DNA from: Arbacia lixula
Lineage: Eukaryota; Echinodermata; Echinoidea; Arbacioida; Arbaciidae
Length of the DNA stretch: 64,000 bases
Direction of reading: 5' to 3'
Assembly (NCBI GenBank): GCA_963669155.1
Contig: OZ022591.1
Location: forward strand, 19,915,925-19,979,924
The notes below the pieces were generated by a model. That model was given only the letters and a program-made list of their open reading frames with translations. It was not told where the DNA came from and made no database searches. Every line of letters starts with the position of its first letter. Positions within the stretch are counted from its first letter, which is position 1. A program made the translations under genes and the position numbers. Shown in pieces: positions 20,361 to 62,042 of this stretch.

Positions 20361-21817
20361 CTAGAGCAATTCGACTGCCCCGCAGTCGATAAATATGCCT
20401 CCGCCTCTTTGCTATTCTCAGAAAATGTGTAAGTTTGGTGGGCAATGTACCATTGCTCCTATGTGAAATGAAAATTTCGCATTCTGTTTTTTCAAGTTTA
20501 GCAAAGTTTGGCAATGTTCATTGACTTTTGACCTCTTTGACTTCCAATCTAACCAGTCCGTCTAAATCCATCCTTGTATCAAGTTTGTTTAAAATTAGCC
20601 AATTTTGGGTGAAGTTCATTGACCTTTGATCTTTCAGGAATTTTACCCAAACTTCACCAGTCTACCTCCATGAAGTGATTCATCTCTGTACTATATTTGG
20701 CTTGAATTGAATCATTAGTATTGGATTCAATGTGAAAAATATCTATTTGGGGGCAATTTTTAGCCAATTTTGGCAAAGTTCATTAACCTTTGAGAAATTT
20801 CACCAAAAATGTCATCAGTCTAGTAGTGATCCATTTTTTTACCATGTTTGGTTGGTATTGCTCCATTGGATTTGGATATATTTTGAAAATTATCACTTTG
20901 GGGGCAATTTTCAGCCAATTTTTGGCAAAGTTCATTGACCTTTGACCTTTGAACTCTCAGGAGTTTTACCCAAACTTTCACCAGTCCACCTCCATGAAGT
21001 GATACATCTCTGTATCATATTTGGTTAGAATTGCGCCATTGGATTTGGATTTAGGTTTATTGTGAAAAATATCAATTTTGCAAAGTTCATTGACCTTTGA
21101 CCTCTGACCTTTCAGCAATTTCACCAATAATGTCACCAGTCTACCCAAAAGTAGTGATCCATCGTTTCACTATGTTTGGTTGGAATTGCACCATTGGGTT
21201 TGGATTTATTGTGAAAAATTGAAAGTTTGGGGCAATTTCTAGCCAATTTTGGCAAAATTCATTGACCTTTGACCTCTGAACTTTCAGGAATTTTACCAAA
21301 AATGTCACCAGTCTATCCCTAAGTAGTAATCTATCTTTGTACCATGTTTAATGAGAATTGCATCCTTGGATTTGGATTTATTGTGAAAAAGGTCAATTTT
21401 TGGCAAATTTTCACAGATTTCATTGACCTTTGACCTCTGACCTTTCAGGAATTTTACCAAAAATGTCACCAGTCTATCCCCAAGTAGTGATACATCTTTG
21501 TACCATGTTTAATGAGAATTGCATCCTTGGATTTAGATTTATTGTGGAAAAGGTCATTTGGGGGCAATTTTTACAAAGTTCATTGACCTTTGACCTTTGA
21601 CCTCAATCAGATTTGACCCCAATTTTACACACTTCATTAGTTTCATGCAATACATACATGTACTAAGTTTGAAGCAAATCTGCTTAACGGTTCTCAAGAT
21701 ATTGCCTAAACGGATTCGGGACGGACGTACGTACGGACGGACGGAAGGACGGACGGACGGACGGACAACCCGAAAACATAATGCCTCCGGCCACTTCGTG
21801 GCGGAGGCATAAAAAGA
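20361..21817 (-). mobile_element. Helitron-like family H, copy B (near full length)
   Basis: In minus orientation it runs from TCTTTTTATGCCTCCGCC, with a perfect 5' hairpin formed by ATGCCTCCGCCACGAAG and its partner, through (GTCC)n and GTTAAGCAGATTTGC, then about eight units of 150-170 bp each containing AGGTCAAAGGTCA or close variants, to a 3' hairpin (GACTGC...GCAGTC) and GAATTGCTCTAG|T. A 3' hairpin followed by CTRR and a T is the known Helitron terminus. There is no ORF. The 5' flank is T and not the canonical A, so the Helitron call is inference. Confidence 0.65.
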
Positions 21818-22445
21818 ACCTTGCAACATCACAACATTCTTGTAAATTGTAACAAGGAAACAAACTCAAGATATTGATTAAAAATTAGGAGGCAGTATTA
21901 ATAAATGACATGAACATGTAAAGCTTTCTAGTTTATTCTACTGTTATTGTACTGAAACTCTATCTACGAAAATCAACTGAAAAATGATAACCCAACAAAA
22001 ACCTCACAGTCTAAAACAATGATTACAGCCCATCATCACTTCAATATCTCTCAACAGATGGCGCTAGACCGTGGCCCAGCACAAGCACTCTGGCCCGTAT
22101 ATAGGTTAGTGTGTAATATTCAATCTAAAACTTGGGACTTAATGGCTCAATCTCTCAAAACTACCATTAATAGTCCAATGTTCTTGGACACAAGCCCTCA
22201 TATACACCTCCCAGATATTCTCTGACAACATTTTAGCAATTTTAAGGGAAGTGAAATTTCCTTCCCATTACTCCCCCTTTCCTGTAAGATGGGAATCCTG
22301 TAAAGTCATGCAACTAATAAGATACCCAAATACATGTAGTACCAAAAATCAAAGTTTGTTATACCTATCTCTAATATGTAACGCTCTCAACATTACCCAT
22401 AAGACCACACCACTGTTACACTGTTACACCACAAACCTTTGAACC

Positions 22446-22495
22446 TCTCCCCCCCCCCCCCCCCTCCCCAAAAAAAAAAAAAAAAAAAAAAAAAT
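22446..22495. repeat. Composite poly(C) / poly(A) tract
   Basis: A C run of about 17 bases is followed by TCCCC and about 24 A residues. Confidence 0.85.
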
Positions 22496-23219
22496 ATCAC
22501 ATCAAAATCATTGTCCAAAAGGCATCATCTGCTTAGCAAAAAGCTCAATTTATGATTCAGATGCTCTAGTTCTAGTTCAATTCCAGTCTAGTTGCAATTT
22601 TTTGGTTCATATTATTACAGCCGAGGAGATGATCAAACAACAATAATCATGACTTGGGGAGATGATCATCAATTTTACTGACTGTATCAAAGCAATGCCT
22701 TAGAAGTCCCGACTCCATGATTCTGAGTAGTGAAAGTACCCAAAACTCAACAAAGGTGACTTTCCTTTTGACTAACAGCAAAGCAAAACAGATACAAATC
22801 ACAACTACAATTACACTACAAAATCATAAGTGGTTGCAGCAGTTTTGTTCCTCTAAATCATACAATCCATACCAACACTTGCAGTGGTATCCTCAGGTCC
22901 TTGGTTACGAAAGTCTTTAACAGTCTTGTTGTGTACTTGCTGAAAAAGTAGCCCTTCTGAAAATCATTACTAAGGCAACTGGCACAGACTGAGAACAGCC
23001 AATAGCCCATGCATGGGAATGAATGAAGAAAAATAATGAACCATAGCAAGATAAAAATTAAGCACAACTAGATAATTAAATCTGGAGAATGTAGGCCAGT
23101 CCCGCCTTGGAAAACACAATCCGTGTGTAAGTAATTACCCTCAGCCCAAGGTACCATGGTTCTTCAAAACAAGGAATCCAAGCTTTTAATGTAATTTGTA
23201 GCCCTCAAGTTATGACATC

Positions 23220-23315
23220 TTATTGAGCAACATACCTATGTATATTGGTCCTGCCTTGCCCAAACCAGCCCAGGTCAAAGTCGTAACCGTCACCCTTGCG
23301 GTTACGACACATGTT
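23220..23315 (-). other. Coding-like in-frame extension beyond the MYND gene stop codon
   Basis: Directly after the TAG at 23318-23316 the same frame stays open for 31 codons to a TAA at 23222-23220. The decoded peptide starts NMCRNRKGDGYDFDLGWFG and has the GC content and residue mix of the upstream exon, unlike the AT-rich intron sequence. It could be a readthrough extension, a recently truncated C-terminus (TAG arising by one base change) or chance. The sequence after the TAG (AAC) is not a known strong readthrough context. Confidence 0.4.
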
Positions 23316-23531: not shown

Positions 23532-26500
23532 CTAGAGGTGATAACAAAAGGGGTGCGTATACAATGTAAATTTCAAGTATCACATAACATGCAGTTGCTG
23601 CTTGAACCCTTTTTGTGACAAACAAACTGCTGCTCTACATATATGGGTTTTATGCACTGATGGTGAAAGATTCCATGTTAACACGTTGCTGATGGGTACA
23701 TTTTCAGGCTCTGTGAACCCTGGTCCAATAAGGATAGCAAAATGTGCCATGGAACTGCAGTAACTAAAGGGGTATGGCTTAATAGTGCAAAGCAGGTCAG
23801 GGTTAACCCTATCTAGCCCGGGGGAGGGGGGGGGGAAACGGCCCCCCCCCCTTCGACATTTTTCACAATAAATTTGTAACGCAAAAAGATAAAAAGATAG
23901 CGCCGCAACGTTGTTTTTTTTTTTCCCTCTAAGTCTCACGCAACTTTTAACACCAAATTTGTGACACTGGGGTATGCCGTTCCGAAGTTATGTAACATTT
24001 TGTGCATGCACGTCAGACCAAAAATTGCTCAAAAACGTGATTTTATGTACAAATCCAATGCAAATTCTGTATCTAGCCAAAATTCATAAATGTATCCTGA
24101 GTTTTATTTCTACTGATGAAAAACAATACATTTCATGTTATTTATGACTGAAAAAGTGTTGCCAAAGATTTCCATTGAAAAAGCAAAGAAAAACATGAAG
24201 TCGAAAAACAAAGAAATACATAGGAAATTCAAAAAACAATAAAATACAAAAATAAAAATTAGCATGATTAATTAAACATAAATTTGAATAATTTTGATGC
24301 AATTGACAATTGAATTGTGGAGATTACGTCATCGTTGATGTGCGTGCCAATTTTCGTCGCCATCGCGCGATCATCGGTCGAGATCTGGGGGGGGGGCTGA
24401 GACGGATATGACTGTTTTATTTCATCTTTTACATTGCTCCTGTGCCGGTTATTGCAGGGCTATTCATTTCTTCCAATGTTGTGCTGACACACCCACTGAC
24501 CTTGTCTTTCAGAGACTTGAAGAAGTCGGCAGTGGGGTCACCTCGTACGCACAGGCTGATGTCGGACAAGGCCCGGTAAATCTGTCCCAGTTCAAAAAGG
24601 CCCTTGCTGCGCCGGAACAGGGCTTTCCGCAATAAACCATTGTTTTTGCCATTGCCGCGGGTGTTGATGGGGCAGGCAACTGTGAGTTGGAGAGTAAAAG
24701 GATGGGGATAAAAGTTAATATACTACTGTAAAATCAGCCAATTTCACGGCACACCACACCCATTCGCGGGATGTTATTTTCCTGCAAAAGAAATACCTGT
24801 CACTACGAAACATTCCATCCTATGCATTAAAATCATCAACACGGCCCCAAACAAAACAGTATCATGAACATTTAAAGGGCATATACTGTACTGGGAAGGC
24901 AAAAACGCCTTCAAAAGGTAATTGTTAGCAATCTTCATGCCAATGGTCTTAAATTCATGTATTGTTCATTTTACAAGCTTGCTGAAAGTTATTTGCCTTC
25001 AAATGATCCACATTTGGAGAAATTAATGATTAATGATTAAATCCTCAAAATGTTCGGCCCGAACATTTTGAGGATTTGTGATTTAACATAAAAGCCTATC
25101 ACTGTGCAGCGCGTCACAATATGCGTACAAGTTGAAGGCCATTATTAGTAACTCCAAAATCCCAGATAGAATTGCGCATCTAGTCTGCTTAAGAGCACAG
25201 TTTATGCAAATTTCATGGCGTGATTGCTATGGTTACGTCCATGGTTTAATCAAATAAAAAACAAGGCATTAGCAATATTGTGTCTCGCCCACTTGCGAAT
25301 ATAACCAGAAATATCGCGATCTCCGTTGCTACGCAAAAGAATTGTATCCCTGACCTCAAATGACCTTTGACCTTATCCTGTGACCTCCAACGGTACCATA
25401 ACATGAAGGTACCCCCAGTGCATCAATGACCCAAGTTAGGTTGTAATCCAAGCAACCTATGTGAAGTTATTTGTCAAAAGAGAGTCTTGCAGGTAAACTT
25501 TAACGTATGACCTCAAATGACCTTTGACCTTATCCTGTGACCTCCAACGGCACCATAACATGAAGGTACCCCCAGTGCATCTATGACCCAAGTTAGGTTG
25601 TAATCCAAGCAACCCATGTGAAGTTATTTGTCAAAAGAGAGTCTTGCAGGTAAACTTTAACGTATGACCTCAAATGACCTTTGACCTTATCCTGTGACCT
25701 CCAACGGTACCATAACATGAAGGTACCCCCAGTGCATCTATGACCCAAGTTAGGTTGTAATCCAAGCAACCCATGTGAAGTTATTTGTCAAAAGAGAGTC
25801 TTGCAGGTAAACTTTAACGTATGACCTCAAATGACCTTTGACCTTATCCTGTGACCTCCAACGGTACCATAACATGAAGGTACCCCCAGTGCATCTATGA
25901 CCCAAGTTAGGTTGTAATCCAAGCAACCCATGTGAAGTTATTTGTCAAAAGAGAGTCTTGCAGGTAAACTTTAACATTTGTGACGGACGACGGACGACGG
26001 ACGGACGGACGACGGACGGACGGACGACGGACGGACGCCATTTGGATCCCTTAGTCTCGCCTTCACCTCCGGTGGGCGAGACAATAACAGGACATGACTG
26101 CATGTGGTTGCAGGTGCACTATGGGACGGCTTTTGCGGAATCTAGAATTGGTCTACTATAAATGAGTCTACAGGCATATTGTTGGCAGACAAACTGATGG
26201 ATGGACGGACAACACAAAATAACTCCTCGGCTCCCTAGCAGTACAGGGATGAATATACAGAACGTCATACATACATCCGATGCACCTGGCTACGGCTTTG
26301 TCACAGTCCTTCACGGCGCGCTCATACTGGTTCTCACACAGATAGCACTGGGCTCGGTTACAGTACAGGGTTATAGGCAGGTCATACCTACATCGAGAAC
26401 ACAGAAAGACAATGGTGAGTTTAAAACTGCAAAGAAAGACAGCACTATTTGACGTGAGGATTTCTCATACTAGTCATACTGATTGGAAGGTCATAGGAAA

Positions 26501-29500
26501 CATGCTATTCATGATGCTTTGAGTAAACAATATCAGAAAAACTGAGGTTTGTTAAACCCTACAAAGACAGAGCACACTCACATTTATGATGCTGTGAGGA
26601 TTTCTTCTGCTGGTCTACAAAGAGGTGGCACTGGGCTGGGTTGCAATGTAGGGTTATAAAAAGGTCATATGTATATTGGAAACGAAGAGAAACAGAGGAT
26701 ACCCTAATGGTAATATTTGGCTGACTTTTCTCCATTCAGATACAGAGCAGCGGGACTCTTGCGTAATCTGCTGTATGGACAAAAGATGACAGCTACGAAT
26801 AATCTCTAAATGCCTTTAATACAGGGTGCAATCAAGCCACATCCATTTGGTCATTGCAGTTCCATGGCAAAATGACATTCTTACTGGACCAGGGTTCACA
26901 AAGCCAGGGATTCTAACTATGAGCAACAGGTTAATACCCATTTCACAGTTTTAACCTGCACAAAGGGCTACAATACATTGAAACATCTGAGAGTGAATCT
27001 AAGACGTACCATGATTTTAGCTCCTTGTTTTTCATAATTGGAGGGCAAATGATGAGAGCTTCTGTGTATTTGTTAATGGCCTTCTCATACTGTCGAGCCT
27101 GGAAGAACTCGTTGCCCTGCTCCTTGAGTCGTTCGGCCAAGTCTCGGTTTAGTTTCTTGCTGGATTTGAGGCGCTCGGTGAACTGCTTCCTGGCGTGAAG
27201 GAACCCACTGTCAAGAAAAAAGAGAAAGAGTTTGTTTTGTCTAATGTCATGTTGTTTTTTATCTTCCTCTGATTAAAGACAGGGTGTCCCGTTTGCAAAA
27301 GTCATGAAATTTGGCAGGAATCAGCAGTTTTCCCAAATAACAACATGCATGAAATCTCAGTCATAGCTTCACCAGCAATATCAGGAAAATTGAAAAACTA
27401 TTCTTGTTTACGTTTGAAACGCACTGACCACAGTCTACATTCATTATTGCATTATCTCTGTCAGCCTTCTGTGTGGGCATTGAACACATGCACTATGAAG
27501 GGGACCGGTGCGGAGCATAGCGCAAAGTGTCTCTGGTCTCTAGGCTGTAGGTTCTGAACAGCCCAAAACCTCCTCAAAAGCTAGCGATCGCTATGATTTC
27601 ACATGAAGTAAGTCACTTTCCAGTTCTATTATTGGGAGGGAAGTTCTGATTCAGTATCTACTTCCATTTTTCATGGTTTTTCCAAAATTCTATTTTTTTG
27701 CCCTGCAAAAGGGACATCCTGTTTTTCAGCCACCCACCAATAATACGTTTGCTTTGGTTAAGTGTATTGCTGGACATCTACCTTCCATTGAACTGGTAAT
27801 TGGTGTTAAAGAGCTCATGTTTAAGGCAATATCAGGGACATATAGACCACCTCCCTTGAGCAGTATGTTTCACTGTACTAAGTTTGAGAAGTGAGGCAAT
27901 AGGAAGGAGAGGAGAACTCACTCTCTGGCATAATGTTGATAGCCTCTCAGAAGATCTGTCACATGCATGTTCAGTGGTCTCTGCAAGCACACAAGAAAAC
28001 AAATATTTTATAAGAAGACAAATATTTCATAATACATACATAAACATTCACCACTGAATAAACTACACAGGCTCACAGTCATTGAGCACCTGTAATAAAA
28101 AAAAAAGGTGCTCCTGCGAATGACAAAAAATATAGCAATTCGACTGCCACGCAGTCGATTTTACCCAAACTTTCACCAGTCTACCTCCATGTAGTGATAT
28201 ATCTCTGTCCCATGTTTGGTTAGAATTGCACCACTGGATTTGGATTTAGGTTTATGGTGAAAATTATAAACTTTTGCAAAGTTCATTGACCTTTGACCTC
28301 TGACCTTTCAGGAATTCTACCAAAAATGTCACCAGTCTACCCCCAAGTAATGACCCATCTGTGTACCATGTTTAATGAGAATTGCATCCTTGGATTTGGA
28401 TTTATTGTGAAAAAAGTCAATTTTTTTACAACGTTTTACAAAGTTCATTGACCTTTGACCCCTCAGGAATTTTACCAAAAATGTCACCTGTTTAACCCCA
28501 AGTAGTGATTTATCTTTGTACCATGTTTAATGAGAACTGCATCCTTGGATTTAGATTTAATGTGAAAAAGGTGAAAAAGGTGAAAAAGGAAAACACCTAA
28601 ACGGATTCAGGACATACAACCCAAAAACTTCGTGGTGGAGGCATAAAAACAATTTAAAGTATTTAAAAGGTTTTAGAAGTACTGTAGCCCTGCAAAATTA
28701 ATTTGCACATTCCCCCCCCCCCCCCCCACTAATTTGAATGTGACAAAAATGGATTGAATAATATTTCTCCCCTCATACAACTAACTCTACAGGCAATATT
28801 TTATTGCAATTATTCATTGCCATTTTGCCCTAACCTTTCACCCTTCCAGAGTTAATACTTCCAATGCTACCTGTACATTGTCTACTCAACTAAGTAGGTG
28901 ATCAGTAGTAACCCTTTGGCAATTAATGACAGATAAATTTAATCGCATCATTGACTTGAGAAGGTTGTGATTTAATCCAGTAAACTATTTAATGTAATTT
29001 CTCAGAACATCAAAACAAAAAAATATAAATCTGTAAGCTAATTTATTTAGCTAGCTAATATATTATCATATCTAAAATCATCATGAGCCAAACGGTTGCC
29101 TGTTTCTCTACCTGGCTACTGTCTCTGCCTGGCTAGTGTCTCTGCCTGGCTAATTCAAGTTCCTGCATGTTTTTCTTTTCCTCGGCATATTTTCTAATAG
29201 ACTGATTTATCAATCTTATTACGACAAAGAGAAACAGCAAAACAATCAAATCTAAACAAAACATGTATCTTACTGCTTCGTTGAAGTAATATTCAGGGTA
29301 GTAGTGGATGTGGTGCGGGCCAAAGTATTTGATCATGTGATGCACACCCTCTGTCTCCACAGTGTAGGTCAGGTAGGCCAGCATGCTGAGCTGAAGGTCA
29401 TGGCTGTGACTGTACATGTGGATGGATGCAGCTCGAGCTATGCTCTGTAAACAAGGTAGAACAAACCCCAATCACAAATCACTGTTATACAGATAATACA

Positions 29501-30849: not shown

Positions 30850-30887
<38 letters not shown>

Positions 30888-33800
30888 AGATAGATAGAAG
30901 GGGCGTCTTCATTAGCTCGAGCTGGGCAAAATAGCGAGCTTGTTCTGATCGGGTTAGCTAGCCAGATCACGAAAAAGCTAGCTATTTGTGTCTTCATTAG
31001 CCAGATCAGGCAAAATAGCGAGCTATTTGGTCGAGAAAATTTCCCACGAAATCTTGGGCTAGATGGAGCTAGCTCAAGCTAGTTCGGAGCATCTTCATTA
31101 GCCTGAAAATTTCTCGATCCCGGCATGCATCAGCACCCACGAGGCATCATTTACGTAATAGGTTTTTACACGTGCGTGAATGCGAGCTCACAACCGAAGC
31201 CATGCAGTCATGGTCTATTCCCGTCGCACACTGCTGGTACGTGCGAAACTCGGGATAATTTACGCAACCCGAGCTCGAGCTTACGTATCCCGAGTTTCGA
31301 GCTAATGAAGACGCGATTGCAACTTCAGGCTAATTCCCCGGATCAGCAAAATAGCTCGCTATTTCATCTGATCGGGCTAATGAAGACGCACCTAGAGAGA
31401 GGTCAGCTCTAGGCTCTTTTCAGATATTCACCTCTTCTTTTGACCAGCTGGACAAGGTTTTTAAGAACAGATGAGTCTCTGATTCAAAAAGTGAGAGAGG
31501 AAGGGAGATGAGAAAGAGAGGAAAGGAAGAAAGAACAATATGAGTGAGAGATGGAGAAATAGAGAGTAACAAAGAGGAGAGACAGACAAAAGTAGAGCAA
31601 TTTGACTGCCACACCGTCGATAAATATACGTCTGCCTCTTTGCTGGCTCTATTTATTCTCAGAAATCATGTTTGCTTCCTGGGCAAAGAACCATTGAATT
31701 ACTGTGTGAAAATGTCATATTCTGTTTTTCCATGTTTAGCCAAGTCTTGCAATGTTCATTGACCTTTGATCTCTTAGTTCTTTGACTTCTAATCTAACCA
31801 GTCTGTCTAAATTCACTGACCTTTGACTTTTAAGAAATTTTACCCAAACTTTCACCAGTCTACCTCAATAAAGAGAGAGAGAGAAAGAGAGAGAGAAGGA
31901 TCAAGAAGGAGAGACAGAGGGACAGAGAAATGGAGCAACAATCAGTTAGACAGAGAGATTGAGGAGGAATGTCAAGAAGGGGAGAGAAGAGAGTGTATAC
32001 ACAGATTTAGAACAAGGCATTAGCAATATTGTGTCTCGCCCACTTGCGAAAATAACCAGAAATATCGCGATCTCCGTTGCTACGCAAAAGAAAACTGAAA
32101 CAAACAAATAAGCAACTTTAAACAGACAACATCAAAATCAGGTGCAAAATAGTGACTTTGAATAAATTTGCATAAATGTGCATGAGTAATGTTTGCCTAA
32201 AAATGCTCACACATGCTCACACAATTCTGTGCACAAGTTAGGAAGCCTTCACCAAGAGTCTTGCAAGTAAACTTTAATGTATGACCTCAAATGACCTTTG
32301 ACCTTATCATGTGACCTCTTACAGCACAATAACATGCAGGTGCCCCAAGTGCATCCATCATCCAAGTTTGATTGCCATTGTAGCAACATGTGATGAGTTA
32401 TGTGTGATAAGAGAGTCTTGCAAGTAAACTTTAACGTATGACCTCAAATGACCTTTGACCTTATCCTGTGACCTCCAACGGTACCATAACATGAAGGTAC
32501 CCCCAGTGCATCTATGACCCAAGTTAGGTTGTAATCCAAGCAACCTATGTGAAGTTATTTGTCAAAAGAGAGTCTTGCAGGTAAACTTTAACGTATGACC
32601 TCAAATGACCTTTGACCTTATCCTGTGACCTCCAACAGCACCATAACATGTAGGTACCCCCAGTGCATCTATGACCCAAGTTAGGTTGTAATCCAAGCAA
32701 CCCATGTGAAGTTATTTGTCAAAAGAGAGTCTTGCAGGTAAACTTTAACGTATGACCTCTAATGACCTTTGACCATATCCTGTGACCTCCAACGCCACCA
32801 TAACATGAAGGTACCCCCAGTGCATCTATGACCCAAGTTAGGTTGTAATCCAAGCAACCCATGTGAAGTTATTTGACAAAAGAGAGTCTTGCAGGTAAAC
32901 TTTAACGTATGACCTCAAATGACCTTTGACCTTATCCTCTGACCTCCAACGGTACCATAACATGAAGGTAACCCCAGTGCATCTATGACCCAAGTTAGGT
33001 TGTAATCCAAGCAACCCATGTAAAGTTATTTGTCAAAAGAGAGTCTTGCAGGTAAACTTTAACGTATGACCTCAAATGACCTTTGACCTTATCCTGTGAC
33101 CTCCAACAGCACCATAACATTAAGGTACCCCCAGTGCATCTATGACCCAAGTTAGGTTGTAATCCGAGCAACCTATGTGAAGTTATTTGTCAAAAGAGAG
33201 TCTTGCAGGTAAACTTTAACGTATGACCTCAAATGACCTTTGACCTTATCCTGTGACCTCCAACGCCACCATAACATGAAGGTACCCCCAGTGCATCTAT
33301 GACCCAAGTTAGGTTGCAATCCAAGCAACCCATGTGAAGTTATGGATCATAAGAGAGTCTTGCAGGTAAACTTTAACATTTGTGACGGACGACGGACGAC
33401 GGACGGACGACGGACGGACGCCATTTGGATCCTTTAGTCTCGCCTTCACCTCCGGTGGGCGAGACAAAAACTGATGGTGTTGTTCGTAGTCTAGAAGAGA
33501 TGGGTTTTCAGATATTTCAGATATTCACCTCCTCTTTCGACCAGCTCAATGAGGTTATAAGACGACACCAGTCTGTGACAGATGGCCTCACTGGAGCACA
33601 GGCCCAAGACGACAGTCAAGGACTCTTGGCAGGCCGCTGCAGAGAACTTGTTATTGACTGGTGCCGTCAACCATCGGATGCAGGGCTGCAGAAGCAACAA
33701 TCCATCATTTCGTTTTCAAAGATATCATATATAAGGCTAGACTTTTGTTTTGCATGTTGATTACCCCAATAAGCATACCATGTTGGGTTGGAATTTCATC

Positions 33801-36800
33801 ATTGGATTTGGATTTATTGTAACAAACATCAACTTTTGGCAATTTTTTTAGAAAAGTTCATTGACCTATCACCTCAATCAGAATTCACATATGTACCAAG
33901 TTTGAAGCAAATCTGGTTAACGGTTCTCAAAGATATTGAATAAACAGATGGACAACCCAAAAACATACATGTATTGCCTCTGGCCACTTTGTGGCGGAGG
34001 CAAACAAATGTTTTTACTATAAAAAAAAATTAACTTCGTAACTGATGGAACTGATGCAATCTTTTAAGTTGAACATAAACCTCCTTTAAGACTTGATGAA
34101 ATAAGTTCTTACGTCTAGAAGTCTATGATACATTCAAAGAGCAGGAGAGAGAAGAGAGAGGAAGAGTGAAAGTGAGAAAGGAGGAATGGAGAGAGTGGTG
34201 GGGGGACATAGATCTAGACAAACTGAAGGTGTTGTTTGGCTTACATCTAGAAGAGATGGGTCCTTTGTCACAGCTGCTCTGGGCTCTTCACATATACGAC
34301 AAAGCTGCAGTGAAGGAGAAATAACAAGAAAATACAAACTCAATAATGAATTCACTAAACTAGCATCATAAACATGTAGAGCTCACTTATAATTTTGCCA
34401 GAATACTTCATTCACATATTAAGCATAATACCAATATTCTTGCACCCTTGACTATGACATCACTGAGGTGCCATTACAGTTAGATGTCAACCAATTTAAA
34501 ATACATTGTGGTTGATTGTAACAATCTCAACAAAATCACAAATTCAGCTCAGTTATGGATTGTGAAGACAACCAAATGTGACCATTCAAATGGGTGGGTT
34601 ATTCTAAGGTGAATACAAAATGCTGTGCAAGATATCCCTGACAATTCAGCAAAGTTCATTAAGCAGTGTCTCATCTCCTTACAAAGGCACCATACAATGG
34701 CATTTTGTACACAAGACATCATTTATCCAGTCATCCAGTTATCCAGTCATGTTTAAATATGTTTTCCACAACTCAATGTTTGTATGTGCCTGAAATATTG
34801 ATATAGTTGGATTGAATCGTAATGTCATTGGGCTGGTGAAAAGCAAGTCTCTATCATTTTGCACTGAATTAAATATCTTCATTTGTTTCTATCTTATATG
34901 ACAATTTATCAAAATTGACGAATGAACAAAGTAAATATATCTTATTACATCAGGAAAAGAATGAGAAGGAAGCTAATAATATGAACCCAATTCCGCAGTT
35001 AATGATTTTTCAGTCTTTGATTATTATGTCAAATATAGTACATAATTTACATCTACACACACAAGTTACAACCATGTTTATGTTTTTCTAACTCATTGTT
35101 TATTGTTTATATGTGTCTATAGTATGGCTATATATTGTTGTCTTATTGTGCTGGTGGAAAGCAAATTTCCATGATTTTGGACTGAATAAAATATCTTGTA
35201 TCTTGTATCTTTATTGGCATTCATACAGGAACATCATTCTATTGATTTTGTTGTTCAGATTTTAATTAAATGTGATAAAGACAAAAATTGAATAGAATTT
35301 TGCATCTGTGATTCACTGCACTTACTCACAGTGCAGCTGCTAAGATGTGAAGAGAGGCATAAAGCAAATGTCAGTACAGCTTATAAAAACAAAAGAGAGC
35401 TTTTCTCCTGTGATTCAGGGCACTTACACCTACTTCATGCTGGCCAGATTTTACCAGGGGAATCTCTCAGCGTGAAAGGGAACCTAAATGGAACACCTGG
35501 GGAGCCTCGAATTAAATTTTTGAAAAAATGTTCCCCCCCTCTCCTCCCCAGTAAACACCTGTTGAACTCCTGGATGTTCACCAGGGAAAGTCTAGCATGA
35601 AAGGCCATCGCGGTGAATCACCGGGTGAAATGCAGATTAAAGATGAAAGGTCATGTCTTGTTTACGCACTTCCACGTGATTCCTACTTGCTTTCAAACAA
35701 TTGCAATTTCGCCAGCTGTGTTGTGACTGGGTCACACAAGTGTACAAAAATTAAAGCAAGCTTCTAGCTACCTAACTAGCTAACTACTTCCGCTATATTG
35801 ATGTAGGTCGGGTGTGTACTGTACAGCTGCATATGCGTACGTGCACTCAACACGTGAAGTTCACAACGGCGCGTAGTAAATTCAATGGGGCGGCACACTC
35901 CAGCGTGAAAGGAATTTTCCACGGTGATTACCTATTAGTTTCAACTGTGAATTCACTGGTGGTTCCCCGGAGCAGTATAAGAGCAAAATCGGAAGAAAGG
36001 TTTTATAATTTGATGCACTTACAGTAAAGGTCTTAAAGACTGAAGAGGCTATCACCTGTGATTTGATGCAAATTTCAGTACAGCTAAAAACTTAAAAGAG
36101 CATAAGGGGTGTACACACGACTTCCTAATCATAAAAGTGTTTACACCCTCTACACCGTAGATCAAATCAAAGGAACAAAGGCGGCCCACGTCTAACGGAG
36201 TTGGCTTTCTCATAAGCTGTATCTTTGAATTGCCTCGAACAAATACTAGTCCTGGTGCTTTCTTAGAACCGTTAATTATACTGGTTATGTGATTGAGATC
36301 GTATTATACGCGTACGTGCACTCAACACGTGAACTTCACCCTCCTACAGTGCGCTGCACAGCCCCAACGCACTCACAACTGTGCATTATTTGTATAATAC
36401 TGCACACGTGCTAGCAGGGCTTAACTTTGCACGCTACATTCAGCATTCATCATGCAAATGATAGTAGCAGTCAACAAAACTACCAACTAAATCACTAGCT
36501 GTTCTTTTCATGAGCCTACATGAGATTTCATATGCATTGTATGTTTCATTGGACACTGGATTGGAAAATATCAAACCGGAGGCCTAGCGGCTTCAGAAAG
36601 CCACCAGTTCACTGACCGATCGGACTCAAGGCGAAATCAAGTAAAGATCCTTGAAATAAGGAGGTGTTCATCTATGTTGACTAAACTTACTGTTCAGCTC
36701 CTAAAAACTGAAGAGAGTTTTTCATCTATGATATGATGCACTTAACCTGATGCTCATAGTTAGATTTTCTAACTTTCTGAACTCTGGTCCAATTCAGATG

Positions 36801-48764: not shown

Positions 48765-48785
48765 GAAGCACACCGACCCTTGATC
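48765..48785 (+). other. NCAPD2: 5' UTR part of the NCAPD2 start exon
   Basis: An acceptor (CAAATTTCTAAATAG) precedes the ATG by 21 bases, so a non-coding upstream exon is expected. Confidence 0.6.
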
Positions 48786-48903
48786 ATGAGCTGGGACTTT
48801 GTACTGCCCCTTCACCTGAAGGACCTACAGACAGGGACTGCGGCCAACCAGTACATCGTGGAAGATGTCTACCCGCTCAGGCAAGTGGCCGACAAGATTA
48901 TTG
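48786..48903 (+). CDS. NCAPD2: NCAPD2 coding exon 1 (aa 1-40)
   Basis: ATG at 48786; MSWDFVLPLHLKDLQ...ANQYIVEDVYPL; donor ATTG|GTGAGT, phase 1. Confidence 0.92.
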
Positions 48904-54900: not shown

Positions 54901-57900
54901 ATCATGGCGGGGGAAAAAAAACACACACACACACAATTATATCACATGTACTTTGAACAATATTGCATTAACAAAACCCAATAGAATTTATTCTATTGAA
55001 GTGTAATAATGGCAAAGATACATGTACCTGGATTCTTAACCTATATGCATATCAATGTGCTTAAGGGCAGGTCCAATAAAGATGACTCATTCTAAGGAGG
55101 AATGTTAAAATGCCAATGTGAACATGTTAAACATGTTTCAAACAATGAAAATCTTTTGCAAATTACCTCATGTCACTAATAACTGTTTGATAGTATTACT
55201 ATTCCATGTTGCTTATTGTTTGTGGAGATTATGGGGGAAAATATATTTGTATATATGTGTTGTCAAGAAAATATCAAATTCATAGATATGATTTAAACAT
55301 ACAGAAATCGCTAAAATATTAGTGATATGTATTATGCATCTAGCGGTCAGCAGGAACCATAGCACAGTGTGAACGTATAGGCCGGTTCATCATGTTTGTG
55401 GATTGATTTCTTTGCTGCGCAGCCTGGTGAGTGGGTGCTGCTACAAGCTGCTGGAGAACCCAGCTGTCACCAGGAACCACAGTACTAGGGATGTCATCAC
55501 ACAGCTGCTCGGCCTCCTCTTCAAGAGATACAACCATGTACTGGGTCAGACATACATGTACCTTTCTTACTTTCGATGAATGATTCCTCTTGTTTGGCTT
55601 TCTAATCTCAACAGTTGCTGGTATCCTTTGAAAGGTATGATCAGTTAAAGGGGAAGTTCACCCTGAAATTATTTTGGTTTCAATAAAAAGAGACAAATGA
55701 AAGAAACATATGAGTGAAGGTTTGACGAAAATCGGTCAAAGGAAAAGAAAGTTATTTGATTTTTAAGATTTGATTTTGTGACGTCACATGCGAGGTGCTC
55801 TCCCATATGTTGTGTACAATTTTCTTCGAAAATGTGCATTTTCTCACAAATATATGCATCCTTTTACTCGTGCGTTTCATACATTATCAGAAATACGTTT
55901 TTACACACATACCTGTCCGAAAAAAAATCATTCCGTTGTCAAAAACAGGGAAAAAGGCAATTTATCGACTTATTTTGTACACAACATATGGGAGAGCACC
56001 TCGCACGTGACGTCACAAAATCAAAACTTTAAAATCAAATAACTTTCTTTTCCTTTGACCAATTTTCGTCAAACCTTCACTCATATGTTTCTTTCATTTG
56101 TCTCTTTTTATTGAAACCAAAATAATTTCAGGGTGAACTTCCCCTTTAAGGGATTTGTAATTAAAGCAATCTAGGAAAAGAGATTTAAAATGCCTTCCTC
56201 CATGCATGTAGGGACAACTGCTATCCCCCCCCCCCCCCCCCCATCCCATTCCCTCCCATGGTTACTGCTGTATACAAAGAATGGTGCTGGGCAATGCCTC
56301 AGTGTCAATTGCAGAAAGAGCAACTCACACAAGAGTCTGATGCCGTCATCCACAATAATATCTATAGATATTAGGTTCTTCAGTAGTTATATTTTATGAA
56401 TGTGCCATGTTTGTTTGCATCTAGGTGGCAGCCTCAAAATGCTGCAGCTGATTCAGCACTTTGAGCATCTACCCAGCCCCCTGGCTCAGGCTGTCCAAAC
56501 CATCGTCTCTCAGTTTGGTGTCAAGAGTGTCGTCAACGAGATCATGAGGTGAGATTATCATCACTTTCCAACACAAACAGCCAGTCGGCAGGCCCCAGAA
56601 AATACGCATAATTTTTCATGAACTTGGTCCAATCTTTTTATGCCTCCGCCACGAAGTGGCCGGAGGCATTATGTTTTCGGGTTGTCCGTCCGTCCGTCCC
56701 GAATCCGTTTAGGCAATATCTTTTTCACATTAAATCCAAATCTAATGATTCAATTCAAACAAACATGGTACAGAGATGTGTCACTTTATGAAGGTAGACT
56801 GGTGAAAGTTTGGGTAAAATTCCTGGAAGGTCAGAGGTCAAAGGTTTATGAACTTTACCAAAATTTGCTGAAAATTGCCCCCAAATTGATACTTTTTACA
56901 ATAAATCCCAATCCAATTATGCATTTCAAGAAAACACTGTACATAGATGAAACACAAGGATACAAGGATGGATTTAGACAGACTGGTTAGATTGGAAGTC
57001 AAAGAAGTAAGAGGTCAAGGGTCAAATGAACATTGCCAATCTTCGCTTAACATGGAAAAACAGAATAAATGGTATTTTTATTTCACATAGGAATGCACTG
57101 GAACATTCCCAACCAAACAATCAGATTTTCTGAAAATAATCCAAATAGAGCTAGCAAAGAGGCGGAGGCATATTTATCGACTGCGTGGCAGTCGAATTGC
57201 TCTAGTTTTCTAATTGTTCTGTTTTCTTTTTATTGAATTCACCTCATTTTCAGAGTTTTCTTGTGCTTGATTTGCCTTGCAGGGAGATTGGGAGCATGGA
57301 CCCACATGACCTCTCCCGGGACAGCAGTGGGACCCGTTCCTATGCAGCCTTCCTGGTGGAGCTGGCTGAGAGGGTTGCCAGCACCATGCTACCCTGCATC
57401 AGCCTGATCCTGTGCCACCTTGATGGAGAGGTCAGTACTGATTTGACCCCTTCTGTGCCAGACAACAATGGTGCTCCGTACATCTCTGTGTGTAGCTTGA
57501 GATCAAGTGCTGTGCCTCATACTCCCGGGGTATTTCAAAGCTTTCAAAAAATGTCGTCCGCACGTTTTTACATGCATAATGCAAATGCAATATCACAATT
57601 CTTTTTTATGCCTCCGCCAAGAAGTGGTCGGAGGCATTATGTTTTCGGGTTGTCCGTCCGTCCGTCCGTCCGTCCCGAATCCGTTTAGGCTATATCTTGA
57701 GAACCGTTAAGCAGATTTGCTTCAAACTTGGTACTTGTATGTATTGCATGAAACTAATGAAGTGTGTAAAATTGGAGTCAAATCTGATTGAGGTCAAAGG
57801 TCAAAGGTCAATGAACTTTGTAAAAATTGCCCCCAAATGACCTTTTCCACAATAAATCCAAATCCAAGGATGCAATTCTCATTAAACATGGTACGAAGAT

Positions 57901-60900
57901 AGATCACTACTTGCCGATAGACTGGTGGCATTTTTGGTAAAATTTCTGAAAGTCCAGAGGTCAAAGGTCAATGAACTTTGCCAAAATGGGCTAGAAATTG
58001 CCCCAAACTTTAAAATTTTCACAATAAATCCAAATCCAATGGTGCAATTCCAACCAAACATAGTGAAACGATGGATCACTACTTGGGGGTAGACTGGTGA
58101 CATTGTTGGTGAAATTGCTGGAAGGTCAGAGGTCAAAGGTCAATGCACTTTGCAAAAATTGATATTTTTCACAATAAACCCAAATCCAAATCCAATTGCG
58201 CAATTCTAACCAAACATGGTACAGAGATGTATCACTTCATGGAGGTAGACTGGTGAAAGTTTGGGTAAAACTCCTGAGAGTTCAAAGGTCAAAGGTCAAT
58301 GAACTTTGCCAAAAAATAGCTAAAAATTGCCCCCAAAGTGATAATTTTCAAAATATATCAAAATCCAATGAAGCATTACCAACCAAACATGGTGCAAAGA
58401 TGGATCACTACTAGACTGATGACATGTTTGGTGAGATTTCTCAAAGGTCAGGGATCAAAGGTCAATGAACTTTGCCAAAATTGGCTAAAAATTGCCCCCC
58501 AAAAGATATTTACCACATTGAATCCAATACTAATGATTCAATTCAAACCAAACATAGTACAGAGATTTATCATTTCATGGAGGTAGACTAGTGAAGTTTG
58601 GGTAAAATTCCTGAAAGATCAAAGGTCAATGAACTTCACACAAAATTGGCTAATTTTAAACAAACTTGATACAAGGATGGATTGAGACAGACTGGTTAGA
58701 TTAGAAGTCAAAGAAGTAAGAGGTCAAAAGTCAATGAACATTGCCAAACTTGGCTAAACTTGAAAAAACAGAATGTGATATTTTTATTTCACATAGGAGC
58801 AATGGTACATTGCCCACCAAACATACACATTTTTTGAGAATGGGAAAGAGGCGGAGGCATATTTATCGCCTGCGTGGCAGTCGAATTGCTCTAGTTTTCA
58901 ATGAATTAACACTATATAGCCCAGGCTATTTTGAAATCGCATAGCCCGGGGGCGGGGGGAAAAAAATGGCCCCCCCCCCCAAGATCTCGACCATTGATCG
59001 TGCGATCGTGACGAAAATTGGCACGTACGTTACCGATGACGTTATCTCCAGAATTCTATTCTCTATTGCACCAAAATTCTTCCAATTTATTTTTAATTAA
59101 TTAATTATGCTAATTAAAGCATAAAATCATAGATTGGATGTAAATCTTGAAATATATCCCCCAAACTGCTAGATTTCACTCCAGACACTCTTCTTAGGAT
59201 TATTTTTAAAAAAGGATTTTAAAGAAGGCAATATAATTTTTTCTTATGTATTTTAATGTTTTTTGAATTTCTTATGTATTTCTTTGGGGGGGGGGGGGGG
59301 GCAAAAACAGCCCCCCCCCCCTCCCTTAAGATCTCAACCATTAATCTTGAGATCGCGACGAAAATTGGCACGTACGTCACCGATGACGTAATCTCCAGAT
59401 TGCCATTCTCTATTGCACCAAAATTCTTTAAATTTATTTTTCATTAATTGATTATGCTTATTAATGCATAAAATCATAGATTGGTTATAAATCTTTAAAT
59501 ATATCCCCAAAACTGCTAGATATCTGTCCAGACACTCTTCTTAGGATTATTATCAAATTAGGATTTTAAAAAAAGGCAATATCAAATTTTCATTCCTCCG
59601 CCACGAAGTGGCCGGAGACAGTATGTTTTCGGGTTGTCCGTCTGTCCATCTGTACATAAGTCCGTCCATCTGTCCGTCCGTCCGTCCCGAATCCGTTTAG
59701 GCAATATCTTGTGAACCGTTAAGCAGATTTGCTTCAAACTTGGTACATATACATGTATTGCAGGAAACTAAGGAAGTGTGTAAAATTGGGGTCAAAGCTG
59801 ATTGAGGTCAAAGGTTATAGGTCAATGAACTTTGTAAAAAATGCCCCAAAATGACCTTTTCAACAATAAATCCAAATCCAAGGATGCAATTCTCATTAAA
59901 CATGGTACAAAGATGGATCACTACTTGGGGATAGACTGATGACATTTTTGGTAAAATTTCTGAAAGGTCAGAGGTCAAAGGTCAATGAAATTTGTGAAAA
60001 TTTGCCAGTAATTGACCTTTTTCACAAATCCAAATCCAAGGATGCAATTCTCATTAAACATGGTACAAAGATAGATCACTACTTGGGGATAGACTGGTGA
60101 CATTTTTTCACAATAAATCCACATCTAATGGTGCAACTCCAACCAAGCATACTGAAACGATGGATCACTACTTGGGGGTAGACTGGTGATATCATTGGTG
60201 AAATTGATGTGAGGTCAGAGGTGAAAGGTCAATGAACTTTGCAAAAATTGATATTTTTCACAATAAACCCAAATCCAAATCCAAATCCAATGGTGCAATT
60301 CTAACCAAACATGATGTATCACTTCATGGAGGGAGACTGCTGAAAGTTTAGGTAAAATTCCTGAGAGTTCAAAGGTCAAACGTTAATGAACTTTGCCAAA
60401 AATTAGCTAAAAATTGCCCCCAAAGTAATAATTTTCAAAATATATCCAAATCCATTGGAGCAATACCAACCAAACATGTGCAAAGATGGATCACTACTAG
60501 ACTGATGACATTTTTATTGTAATTTCTCAAAGGTCAGGGATCAAAGTCAATGAACTTTGCGAAAACTGGCTAAAAATTGGCCCCAAATAGATATTTCTCA
60601 CATTGAATCCAATACTAATGATTCAATTCAAACCAAACCTAGTACAGAGATGTATCAATCCATGGAGGTAGACTTGTGAAGTTTAGGTAAAATTCCTGAA
60701 AGGTCAAAGGTCAATGAACTTCACTGAAAATTGGCTAATTTTAAACAAACTTGATACAAGGATGGATTTAGACTGGCTGGTTAGACCGAAGTCAAAGAAG
60801 TAAGAGGTCAAAAGTCAATGAACATTGCCATACTTCGCTAAACTTGAAAAAACAGAATGTAATACTTTCATTTCACATAGGAGCAATTGGTACATTGCCC

Positions 60901-62042
60901 ACCAAACATACACATTTTCTGAGATTAGCAACTTTAGCTTCTTTTTTTTTTAAGCTTCTTTTTTTTTTATTGGAACTGTTAACACATGCTTCTTGAGGCA
61001 TGAAAAGACCAAAATCAATTAGTTAAAATGATTGTTGTCAAAACCTGCTCTCAAAAGGCCCAGTTAGAATAAGGTTACATATTTCACTATTTTGTCTCTC
61101 CTCCAATTTTTTATATTGATGCAGTCCTATACTATGCGTAATGGCGTTCTTGGAGTTATCGGAGAAATAGTGATCAAAGTCTTGAGCAAAGAACAACTGG
61201 ATAAGAATGCCAAAACGGCTCGGGATCAGCTTCTGGATAAGCTTGAGGTAAGTGTCTGAGATATTTATGTGGAACATATGTGTGATGCAGCAATTTGGGT
61301 TCAAAACAAAGATGTGAACTCTTCACCCTGAATGTGTGGGGTAAAAGTTCCCAACGGGGGGATTCTGCCATCCACCCTCCTCTGCCCCTCCCCCCCCCCC
61401 CCCCCCCCCAGATCTCTGCCTTGGATATTCAGATCGTGCACAGATAGAGGCCAACCTATTTTAAACATCACCATTGAGTTTCATAAATTGAGACTTTGTA
61501 TGTTTTTTTATTTCTAGGATATGAACCCACATATTCAGGTTTGTGTGCTGCATGATGAGGAGACGGCAAAATGAAAGATTCAGACATGTATGTACAAATA
61601 GCAATATATTTTCAGTCTCATTCGCACAAATTCTTTACTAAAACATTAAGGAGCATTGCAAATAATGTGTGAAATGTACAAATTAGCACATTTTACTGAA
61701 ATAAGTTCAACTATTTTTTGAGTTGTTGTGGAAATTGTAACATGTCAATACTTATTAGCATAAGGGTTGAAAAATGTTTCACCAAAAATATGCTATGAAA
61801 AAGGCTGATTGTCATTGTGATTATTACCCCAGGACCACATTCATGATGTGAATGCCTTCAGCCGTAGCAGGGCCCTGCAGGTGTGGCTGCATCTGTGCCG
61901 TGAGAGAGCAGTGCCCCTGACCAGGCAGCAGGCCGTGCTGGGGCTGGCCGTGGGCAGGCTCAGGGACAGGTCTAGCATGGTGCGCAAGGCAGCTGTCCAG
62001 CTCATTTCAGCCTTCCTCACTACCAACCCCTTTGCTGCCAAG
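48786..62042 (+). CDS. NCAPD2: Condensin complex subunit 1 (CAP-D2), N-terminal part, 10 exons
   Basis: Ten plus-strand exons join in frame to 435 residues. The protein is the HEAT-repeat subunit of condensin I, which with SMC2/SMC4, NCAPH and NCAPG compacts mitotic chromosomes by ATP-driven loop extrusion. Family landmarks seen in order: FVLPLHLKDL...NQYIVEDVYPL start, LDHFDAFYSLL, EWDWDSEKERSLQCLIQTLQ, LDICRLWDPPVVEEEFV, SGCCYKLLENPAVTRNHSTR, IQHFEHL, ELSRD-type DLSRDSSGTRSYAAFLVELA, MRNGVLGVIGEIV, HDVNAFSRSRALQVW, VPLTRQQAVLGLAVGRLRD and FLTTNPFAAK. All match the vertebrate order. The family is about 1,400 aa, so roughly the first third is here. The start matches the family N-terminus. Introns are dense with transposons. 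Confidence 0.97.
49441..49516 (+). CDS. NCAPD2: NCAPD2 exon 2 (aa 40-65)
   Basis: Acceptor TTTACCTTTTCCAG; CKSALHQDGSLMILDHFDAF; donor CTCAG|GTTAAT, phase 2. Confidence 0.92.
49575..50175. mobile_element. Long imperfect palindrome and flanking repeat in NCAPD2 intron 2
   Basis: Arms of about 75 bases (AGCAAATAATCAAC...CGATCTGGATGT...GCTATCTTTCC and complement) meet at a loop GAGGCGCAGCTGA near 49655-49670. A second inverted pair, TATTCCACAT (49750) and ATGTGGAATA (50161), encloses a 12-bp minisatellite. No ORF. Confidence 0.7.
49853..49945. repeat. 12-bp minisatellite (TTAGGACGCGCA)
   Basis: Seven to eight units with one- or two-base variants; each unit adds CpG-rich GACGCG. Confidence 0.9.
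50559..50617 (+). CDS. NCAPD2: NCAPD2 exon 3 (aa 65-85)
   Basis: Acceptor CATTGGAGCAG; QFQIVDKDTREEAWDIILT; donor ACAG|GTGAGT, phase 1. Confidence 0.9.
50618..51983 (+). other. NCAPD2 intron 3; nothing recognised
   Basis: No repeat family shared with the rest of the window and no further exon seen. Confidence 0.5.
51984..52165 (+). CDS. NCAPD2: NCAPD2 exon 4 (aa 85-145)
   Basis: Acceptor GATTCTGGTCCAG; includes TRHLLLNATKMTTYVLCQMT; donor AGG|GTGAGT, phase 0. Confidence 0.93.
52288..52421. mobile_element. piggyBac-like MITE family P, copy 3 (short, 134 bp)
   Basis: TTAA on both sides; CCCTAGTTAGC...poly(G)...CAAAAACAGCC...poly(C)...GGGCTATATAGGG. A minimal, internally deleted copy. NCAPD2 intron 4. 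Confidence 0.75.
52514..53308. mobile_element. pogo/Tigger-like element, copy 2
   Basis: CAGGGAAACCCCGTTATAAC at one end, the complement of GTTGTAACAGGGGTTCCCTG at the other, TA on both flanks. The interior matches the 38517 copy in inverted orientation and carries (CA)n. No transposase. NCAPD2 intron 4. Confidence 0.75.
53580..53722 (+). CDS. NCAPD2: NCAPD2 exon 5 (aa 146-193)
   Basis: Acceptor TGTCTCTCCCTAG; EWDWDSEKERSLQC through DPPVVEEEFV; donor GTCAA|GTAAGC, phase 2. Confidence 0.95.
53862..53890. repeat. poly(G) tract with (GT)n
   Basis: GTGTGTGCGTGT followed by a G run of about 17 bases in NCAPD2 intron 5. Confidence 0.85.
54461..54821. mobile_element. piggyBac-like MITE family P, copy 4
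   Basis: TTAA flanks; CCCTAATCAGGCCGGGGTTG...and...CCCCGGCCGTTTAAGGG. The inner subterminal word here is GTTGATTCAACCCC and not CAAAAACAGCC, so it is a subfamily. It keeps GCGATTGCGACAAGATTTGG. NCAPD2 intron 5. Confidence 0.7.
55423..55544 (+). CDS. NCAPD2: NCAPD2 exon 6 (aa 193-234)
   Basis: Acceptor TTTCTTTGCTGCGCAG; LVSGCCYKLLENPAVTRNHS through LFKRYNHVL; donor CTGG|GTCAGA, phase 1. Confidence 0.95.
55645..56149. mobile_element. Fold-back MITE, family F, copy 3 (best preserved)
   Basis: TTAA flanks both ends. Arms of about 170 bases start AGGGGAAGTTCACCCTGAAA and pair with the right end. Each arm contains a CRE (GTGACGTCAC) and GAGAGCACCTCGCA / TGCGAGGTGCTCTC. No ORF. NCAPD2 intron 6. 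Confidence 0.8.
56226..56243. repeat. poly(C) tract
   Basis: C run of about 17 bases in NCAPD2 intron 6. Confidence 0.85.
56425..56548 (+). CDS. NCAPD2: NCAPD2 exon 7 (aa 234-275)
   Basis: Acceptor GTTTGCATCTAG; KMLQLIQHFEHLPSPLAQAV through VVNEIM; donor ATGAG|GTGAGA, phase 2. Confidence 0.94.
56633..57205 (+). mobile_element. Helitron-like family H, copy F (complete ends, 573 bp)
   Basis: A|TCTTTTTATGCCTCCGCC at 56633 to GAATTGCTCTAG|T at 57205, with both terminal hairpins and only about three DR1-bearing units. This copy has the canonical Helitron A/T flanks. NCAPD2 intron 7. Confidence 0.72.
57283..57430 (+). CDS. NCAPD2: NCAPD2 exon 8 (aa 275-324)
   Basis: Acceptor TTTGCCTTGCAG; EIGSMDPHDLSRDSSGTRSY through LILCHLDGE; donor GAG|GTCAGT, phase 0. 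Confidence 0.95.
57600..58894 (+). mobile_element. Helitron-like family H, copy G (near full length)
   Basis: TCTTTTTTATGCCTCCGCC to GAATTGCTCTAG|T, 1295 bp, eight or so units with AGGTCAAAGGTCAATG, opposite orientation to copy B. NCAPD2 intron 8. Confidence 0.72.
58906..59589. mobile_element. piggyBac-like MITE family P, copy 5 (rearranged)
   Basis: Starts TTAACACTATATAGCCCAGG with two partial left halves in tandem (second from about 59284), each with a CGACGAAAATTGGCACGTACG-type core (20-base limit: CGACGAAAATTGGCACGTAC) and GATGACGT. No closing TTAA; it is cut by the element starting at 59590. Confidence 0.65.
59590..60925 (+). mobile_element. Helitron-like family H, copy H (3' end lost)
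   Basis: Begins TCATTCCTCCGCCACGAAG with the 5' hairpin, (GTCC)n and DR1-bearing units. It stops shortly before the 3' hairpin at a T-rich stretch. NCAPD2 intron 8. Confidence 0.7.
61125..61247 (+). CDS. NCAPD2: NCAPD2 exon 9 (aa 325-365)
   Basis: Acceptor TTATATTGATGCAG; SYTMRNGVLGVIGEIVIKVL through ARDQLLDKLE; donor GAG|GTAAGT, phase 0. Confidence 0.95.
61388..61410. repeat. poly(C) tract
   Basis: C run of about 20 bases in NCAPD2 intron 9. Confidence 0.85.
61518..61538 (+). other. NCAPD2: Candidate 21-bp in-frame microexon in NCAPD2 intron 9
   Basis: A strong acceptor (TTTTTTTATTTCTAG) is followed by seven codons (DMNPHIQ) and a plausible donor (CAG|GTTTGT). Both neighbouring exons have phase 0 boundaries, so inclusion would keep the frame. 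Vertebrate NCAPD2 has no equivalent that I know of; it may be a cryptic site. Confidence 0.25.
61833..62042 (+). CDS. NCAPD2: NCAPD2 exon 10 (aa 366-435)
   Basis: Acceptor GATTATTACCCCAG; DHIHDVNAFSRSRALQVWLH through SAFLTTNPFAAK; donor AAG|GTAAGG, phase 0. The next exon is not found before 64000. Confidence 0.96.

Follow-up and report, generated by a model that had tools for sequence, protein, structure and literature searches.

Nearly all perfect DR1 sites in the 64,000-nt stretch of DNA analysed here (the window) lie in two families of tandem repeats, H and 157, which, judged by their sequence features, have the anatomy of HINEs, the non-autonomous Helentrons of the DINE-1/pearl/Cg_HINE kind. 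The sequence AGGTCAAAGGTCA is the consensus DR1 for RXR, HNF4 and COUP-TF. Taken as a whole, we regard as probable a reading in which H and 157 are HINE-type families with two shared boxes, copying accounts for the number of DR1 sites, and the first box is kept by a protein, most likely a host receptor.

Anatomy of the two families

The window contains ten repeat elements, two of the 157-bp family and eight copies or fragments of family H, the latter compiled by hand from self-alignment and end motifs. An earlier, sequence-only reading of this DNA had likewise counted eight H copies; the range it gave for them, 20361..60925, holds for all except the copy at 17,944-18,690. The elements and their parts are listed below.

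17944..18690, minus strand: worn H copy, recognised by self-alignment and ends; two perfect cores (18232, 18366)
20358..21817, minus strand: near-full-length H copy; six perfect cores (20936, 21091, 21263, 21424, 21584, 21591)
~20372-20388: palindrome CGACTGCCCCGCAGTCG, just outside the 3' subTIR of the H copy 20358..21817
20395..20405, minus strand: 3' subTIR of the same H copy, ATGCCTCCGCC as read on the plus strand
21719..21766, minus strand: (GGAC)n / (GTCC)n microsatellite adjoining the hairpin of the same H copy
21781..21810, minus strand: terminal hairpin of the same H copy, made of the 5' subTIR (21800-21810) and its inverted partner (21781-21791)
25265..26088, minus strand: element a of the 157-bp family; four perfect cores at exact 157-bp spacing
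25281..25292, minus strand: 3' subTIR of element a, TGTCTCGCCCAC as read on the plus strand, with palindrome-like GCAATATTG at 25272-25280
25351..25980, minus strand: 157-bp unit array of element a; on the plus strand the half-site cluster comes first and box 2, CCAAGTTAGGTTG, ~60 bp on
25982..26037, minus strand: GACGGACG-type microsatellite of element a
26072..26083, minus strand: 5' subTIR of element a, within the terminal hairpin GTCTCGCC..GGCGAGAC
28126..28650, minus strand: short H copy; two perfect cores (28287, 28449)
31588..31881, minus strand: 3'-end fragment of an H copy, lacking a perfect core
32016..33471, minus strand: element b of the 157-bp family; seven perfect cores at exactly 157 bp, divergent first unit at ~32252-32408
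32032..32043, minus strand: 3' subTIR of element b
32255..33382, minus strand: 157-bp unit array of element b
33455..33466, minus strand: 5' subTIR of element b
33777..33975, minus strand: H fragment; no perfect core
56633..57210, plus strand: short H copy with both ends present; no perfect core
57603..58899, plus strand: near-full-length H copy; five perfect cores
59587..60931, plus strand: H copy with its 3' end lost; two perfect cores (59973, 60702)

Other repeats in the window include a MITE-like small element at ~18770-18925, just past the worn H copy, with inverted ends GGGCCCCGTTGCATAAAA..., a remnant DDE transposase at 42027-42335 on the minus strand (Pfam DDE_3, 27.9 bits, just below the cut-off of 28.6), and an inverted pair, ~70% identical, at 38511-39269 and 52580-53314, which is another dispersed repeat family. 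The sequence-only reading placed the DR1 cores in introns of two divergent genes; the exon-like ORFs seen here were of TPR type and lay on the minus strand.

Read on the strand opposite TGACCT, an H element consists of T's, ATGCCTCCGCC, a loop and GGAGGCAT, which together form the hairpin, followed by a GTCC block, the units, and a 3' end composed of GGCGGAGGCAT, the palindrome CGACTGC..GCAGTCG and CTAG-TTT. A 157 element opens with TGTCTCGCCCAC..GGCGAGAC; a GTCC/GTCGTCC block leads from there to the units, and behind the units come GTGGGCGAGACA and a short palindrome, CAATATTG. Window copies of both families carry subTIRs at both ends (ATGCCTCCGCC in H, TGTCTCGCCCAC in 157), the inverted partner of the 5' subTIR that makes the hairpin, a microsatellite and central tandem repeats, and T runs flank the H copies at 20.4, 56.6 and 57.6 kb. 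The 3' palindrome motif of H was found in seven of nine arrays sampled elsewhere in the genome, while that of the 157 family is weaker, being just the short core. With one mismatch allowed, subTIRs were present at both ends of seven and at one end of two of the nine sampled 157-family arrays; for the nine sampled H arrays the motifs were present at both ends in six, at one end in two and at neither in one (L076). Stop-to-stop ORFs of ~100-160 aa overlap some copies, and the one at 57206-57688, when scanned, gave no Pfam family.

This layout matches the HINE and DINE-1 features set out in PMC4067079. As described there and in PMC7492417, HINE and Cg_HINE elements resemble H and 157 in having a 5' subTIR with inverted partner, a GTCC-type microsatellite, repeats of ~140-180 bp (the size predominant among the central monomers of oyster Cg_HINE, PMC7492417), a 3' subTIR with palindrome and possibly T-rich flanks, a likeness of described features and not of sequence. 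Since the anatomy fits, the layout common to both families, which the sequence-only reading had correctly noted as terminal hairpin, (GGAC)n block and unit array, is that of a known transposon type. The ~157-bp units are, by the same features, the central tandem repeats of HINE-type elements, and the ~157-bp spacing follows from the unit length of such repeats. Mobilisation, which had been suggested earlier, is well supported by the HINE-type ends of both families and their spread through the genome. On this evidence H and 157 are previously undescribed elements of a known transposon kind, unusually heavy in receptor-type sites. PMC4067079 counts sea urchin among the genomes bearing DINE-1-like elements, with reference to the paper on the Tsp elements of sea urchin.

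DR1 sites in the window and across the genome

We counted 29 perfect TGACCTTTGACC 12-mers and 26 perfect 13-mers across the window, in agreement with the earlier figure of more than twenty DR1 cores. When up to two mismatches were allowed, TGACCTTTGACC occurred 66 times against 5.81 expected, the maximum of 100 shuffles being 12. The matches, in the window and in the genome, consist of two AGGTCA half-sites one base apart and in the same direction. All but one of the perfect 12-mers (28 of 29) fall inside seven of the ten repeat elements, and the three H copies at 31.6, 33.8 and 56.6 kb have no perfect core. A lone perfect DR1 lies outside all H and 157 elements at 37397-37408, ~15 bases from the exon-like ORF 36971-37381 on the minus strand.

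The spacing of the cores differs between the families. In the 157-bp arrays the four cores of element a and the seven of element b stand exactly 157 bp apart, as had been claimed, and each unit holds a half-site cluster reading TGACCTC-AAA-TGACCTTTGACCT-TATCCTG-TGACCTC, with half-site steps of DR4, DR1 and DR7. For H, in which DR1 is contained in a heptad run, (TGACCTY)2-3, a unit length of ~150-170 bp had been claimed; neighbouring perfect cores show distances of 134-172 bp, of 7 bp where the heptads run on into a third half-site, and in one case of 729 bp.

In the host genome (607 Mb, 590 contigs) the exact 13-mer TGACCTTTGACCT occurs 23,903 times (12,053 + 11,850), or once per ~25 kb, and its reversed control 48 times; these and the following genome counts are lower bounds for repeats. 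The consensus DR1 pattern RGKTCAnRGKTCA (RGKTCANRGKTCA) gave 38,602 matches against 1,607 for its reversed control, and the consensus DR2 (RGKTCANNRGKTCA) 3,207 against 1,071; three positions in the exact-DR1 listing (C1:2,618,274, 2,618,431 and 2,618,588) are absent among the consensus DR1 matches listed. The human genome is roughly five times larger than this one. For human, the same patterns are reported in Table 1 of PMC1785376 to give 11,230 DR1 and 108,582 DR2, the former to be set against the 38,602 found here.

In the window and in a random 200 kb, nearly all exact DR1s lie in such elements. Twenty stretches of 10 kb drawn from contigs C1-C20 at positions 0.1-17 Mb (including 11,289 N) contained five perfect 12-mers, all of them in one H element (L051). 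The 100 exact-DR1 places listed resolved by eye into 19 clusters and six single sites; among the 18 arrays and two single sites sampled from these places, and so chosen by DR1, the arrays comprised nine of the 157 family and nine of H, and at L078 no element was recognised by eye. We infer that copying of HINE-like elements produced the genome-wide number of DR1 sites.

Two further patterns were seen in the genome. The DR2 GGGTCAAAAGGTCA recurs at ~173-bp spacing on contig C1 (19,493,277-19,493,636 and 6,814,657-6,814,844) and probably marks another repeat family, one whose half-sites are paired as DR2. Several arrays of the 157 family contain a core 191 bp (157 + 34) from the one before it, for example from C1 5,117,861 to 5,118,052, perhaps reflecting a subfamily with a 34-bp insertion.

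Two shared boxes and the conservation of the DR1 core

The sequence-only reading held that the families differ in sequence beyond the DR1 core and that DR1 had been kept in two independent lineages. With the half-sites masked, the divergent 157 unit aligned to the H consensus with a score of 32, which no shuffle attained in runs of 200 and of 500; the match spans ~60 bp, and the second block lies in the same register, 43 vs 49 nt after the core. The 157 majority consensus matches H more weakly at the same place (score 23, attained by three shuffles out of 200 and three out of 500). H and the divergent 157 unit have in common a box 1, the TGACCT half-site cluster including a perfect DR1, and a box 2, CCAAGTTTG-like, ~45-60 bp further on. 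The supposed difference beyond the core is wrong for this second block, which lies ~45-50 bp past the core, clearly so for H and the divergent 157 unit and less strongly for the 157 majority. Because H and the divergent unit share the block in register, the independent-lineage reading is unsupported, and we reject separate origins for the DR1s of the two families in the window. By these alignments, H and 157 probably form one superfamily, the divergent 157 unit sharing both blocks with H in the same register.

The sampled locus L079 is a third element, with ends GTCTCGCCTGA..TCAGGCGAGACA and palindrome GTGGTTCGCGAACCAC as read by eye. It contains CCAAGTTTGATCACAATTG. Aligned with a single real H unit, L079 scored 31, a value attained by none of 1000 shuffles, whereas its match to the divergent 157 unit was weak (score 23, 13 of 1000); against the H and 157 consensuses there was no match, the score being 17 in both cases (reached by 455 and 267 of 1000 shuffles, respectively).

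A comparison of the core with the rest of the unit, which the sequence-only reading had proposed as a check, turned out differently in the two families. For H, the core clearly ranks with the best-conserved segments of the unit. Among 30 full units not chosen by DR1 (from the window and L051), the exact core was found in 14, with a median window of 5 and 4 of 156 windows higher; within one mismatch it was found in 27, with a median of 11 and 0 of 156 windows higher, so that the earlier statement of a perfect core in every H unit is not borne out. In the larger set of 77 full units out of 109, the core was exact in 35 (median 14) and within one mismatch in 68 (median 29), ranking 5th of 156 and joint 1st, respectively, and in a set of 38 stretches it ranked 7 of 157 windows. 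Masking the core in the alignment profile (109 stretches) lowered its rank to 55 of 156 (0.801 vs a mean of 0.778), a ranking in which heptad copy number blurs the columns. The best-kept H stretch, AAAGTTCATTGACCTTTGA, begins 9-10 bases upstream of DR1 and is therefore not centred on it; this stretch also reads as an inverted pair, AGTTCA-T-TGACCT, 16 times in the window.

In the 157 family the preference for DR1 over a control is slight at most. The row sets used were 79 (all), 54 full of 79, or 13 window rows, depending on the analysis. Among all 79 rows, 30 of 38 cluster columns are invariant vs 47 of 119 elsewhere, and the invariant runs of at least six columns are TGACCTC, AATGACCTTTGAC, TGACCTC and ATAACAT; in the 13 window rows alone, variable columns number 5 of 38 in the cluster vs 51 of 119 elsewhere. 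The core ranked 21 of 146 in a 13-row set that included two flanking non-units, and once these were removed (11 units) it was invariant, being among three of 146 windows as high. A genome-wide count of 11,670 for AATGACCTTTGAC vs 8,926 for a non-core 13-mer favours the core, the first number possibly including other families and the second being that of a single 13-mer counted alone. Spaced patterns gave nearly equal results, with TGACCTTTGACCN{15,36}GTCACCAGTCTA in 15 of 24 anchors vs GTCACCAGTCTAN{40,65}TTGGATTTGGAT in 14 of 24 (22 sequences). In the genome-wide count not chosen by DR1, 8,343 of 8,926 units with an intact anchor retained the DR1 12-mer (93.5%) and 8,269 of 8,926 the control 12-mer (92.6%), in a family that has diverged little (mean identity 0.955). 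The control word is itself well kept, 40 of 40 intact in the sample, the same as the core, which makes it a hard comparison. The check thus favours the core in sampled 157 units and hardly in the genome count. Column-based p-values for this family (6e-4, 5e-5 and 5e-4) were rejected as general proof of selection, because the columns are dependent, the sampled arrays had been selected through DR1, and almost no excess appears in the genome count.

The near-equality of core and control in the 157 family is what would be expected if box 1 persisted neutrally, with unequal exchange and conversion homogenising the tandem units and slippage of the TGACCTY heptad regenerating DR1. The mismatches of the divergent unit, 1 of 38 positions in the cluster vs 31 of 119 elsewhere, fall mostly in its second half like a conversion tract, and the number of TGACC copies per H unit varies from 0 to 4 (77 full units), both of which fit this explanation. 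It sits less well with the separate half-sites being nearly invariant while some spacer columns vary (79 rows), and with the finding that, in the H units sampled independently of DR1, no 12-mer window surpasses the core when one mismatch is allowed. We regard the neutral explanation as rather unlikely.

Related arrays and the persistence of box 1

Paired perfect DR1s separated by 130-160 bases turned up in bacterial genome assemblies (16 stretches) and in three viral contigs; a 28-mer of the H 5' end had no match in viral contigs. Three of these 19 matches resemble HINE arrays with hairpin-like ends: L014, from a Bathymodiolus symbiont assembly, with a 158-bp unit, and L008 and L010, from one bacterial MAG, with ~147-bp units, all with a TGACCTTGACCTTTGACCT box. 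L014 is probably mussel DNA, and we infer that all three are probably host-DNA contamination of bacterial assemblies. Outside the half-sites, their units showed no likeness to H, to 157 or to each other, save that an end segment of L010 weakly matched the 157 unit (score 21, 9 of 500 shuffles). The remaining 16 were classed by eye as short iterons, heptad repeats, bacterial duplications or cores beside N runs; in Nitrosospira, Nitrosomonadales and Ralstonia contigs (L006, L012, L017 and L018), TTGACCTTTGACCC(A/C)CG recurs every ~22 bp in an iteron-like arrangement unlike HINEs.

That box 1 outlasts most of the H unit may be explained by its use by a protein important to the element. The likeliest single candidate would be a DR1-binding host nuclear receptor of RXR, HNF4 or COUP-TF type, which could promote transcription of the element or open its chromatin in the germ line, and any effects on host genes would be by-products. 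That a nuclear receptor is what keeps box 1 is put forward tentatively, at somewhat less than an even chance.

An element-encoded protein or a replication factor is another candidate. The half-site cluster might represent iterons recognised by a replication factor or by the Rep protein of the Helentron, its likeness to a receptor site being coincidental. Box 1 does consist of direct repeats, the element that holds it is of rolling-circle type, and conservation in H reaches beyond DR1. Moreover, all 11 of the 157 arrays viewed by eye (nine sampled, two in the window) share one end point ahead of the microsatellite, and four of the 11 open exactly with the cluster's first TGACCT. The half-site spacing, however, differs by family (DR1; DR4-DR1-DR7; DR0-DR1) with DR1 constant, which suits a dimeric receptor, an argument biased by L008, L010 and L014 having been found by DR1. 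We consider iterons a doubtful explanation.

Host selection on the arrays as enhancers, decoys or nucleosome-phasing arrays, as the sequence-only reading had envisaged, appears highly improbable. The very large number of perfect consensus sites speaks for it, as does the binding of transposon-borne receptor sites in human cells: Alu repeats have been described as harbouring DR2 and HNF4a sites, part of which are bound in vivo (PMC1785376, PMC3252374). The spread of the sites here, however, tracks the transposon, and the authors of the Alu study PMC3252374 considered the accessible sites too scarce to alter HNF4a availability in the normal hepatocyte, so that a sink effect was unlikely to matter there.

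Receptor use of box 1 would have a partial parallel in Alu, which resembles H and 157 in that a transposon multiplies receptor direct repeats genome-wide (PMC1785376, PMC3252374); the present elements differ in bearing tandem DR1s, several per element, in a DNA transposon, whereas Alu carries DR2 in a SINE. Pearl and BIV160/Cg170 of bivalves are similar in having ~160-bp units within mobile elements (PMC5139131). As described there, each BIV160/Cg170 monomer has 'two well-conserved sequence motifs', here set beside H and 157 by description only, and the published BIV160 primer contains TTTGACCCC, a hint of likeness. In the literature search we found no paper joining Helitron, DR1 and nuclear receptor, and none with Helentron and nuclear receptor among the matches listed; PMC7492417 and PMC4067079 nowhere use the phrase 'nuclear receptor', and those matches to the DR1 string with 'repeat' that were examined among the ones listed were oligonucleotide primers.

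Since L008, L010 and L014 were found by DR1, they suggest a wider rule and do not prove it. Under that rule, a half-site cluster with a perfect DR1 would be a lasting functional box of HINE/pearl repeats across animal phyla, used by a host receptor in the germ line, and receptor-responsive arrays would have been sown repeatedly; we hold this to be quite unlikely. If it were true, HINE/pearl elements would have sowed tandem receptor-responsive arrays by the ten thousand. For the genome analysed here, the elements would serve, were they not bound, as a warning that motif counts mislead in HINE-rich genomes; and should receptors occupy even a minor fraction of the sites, the elements would constitute a natural experiment in which a DNA transposon titrates and rewires nuclear-receptor networks.
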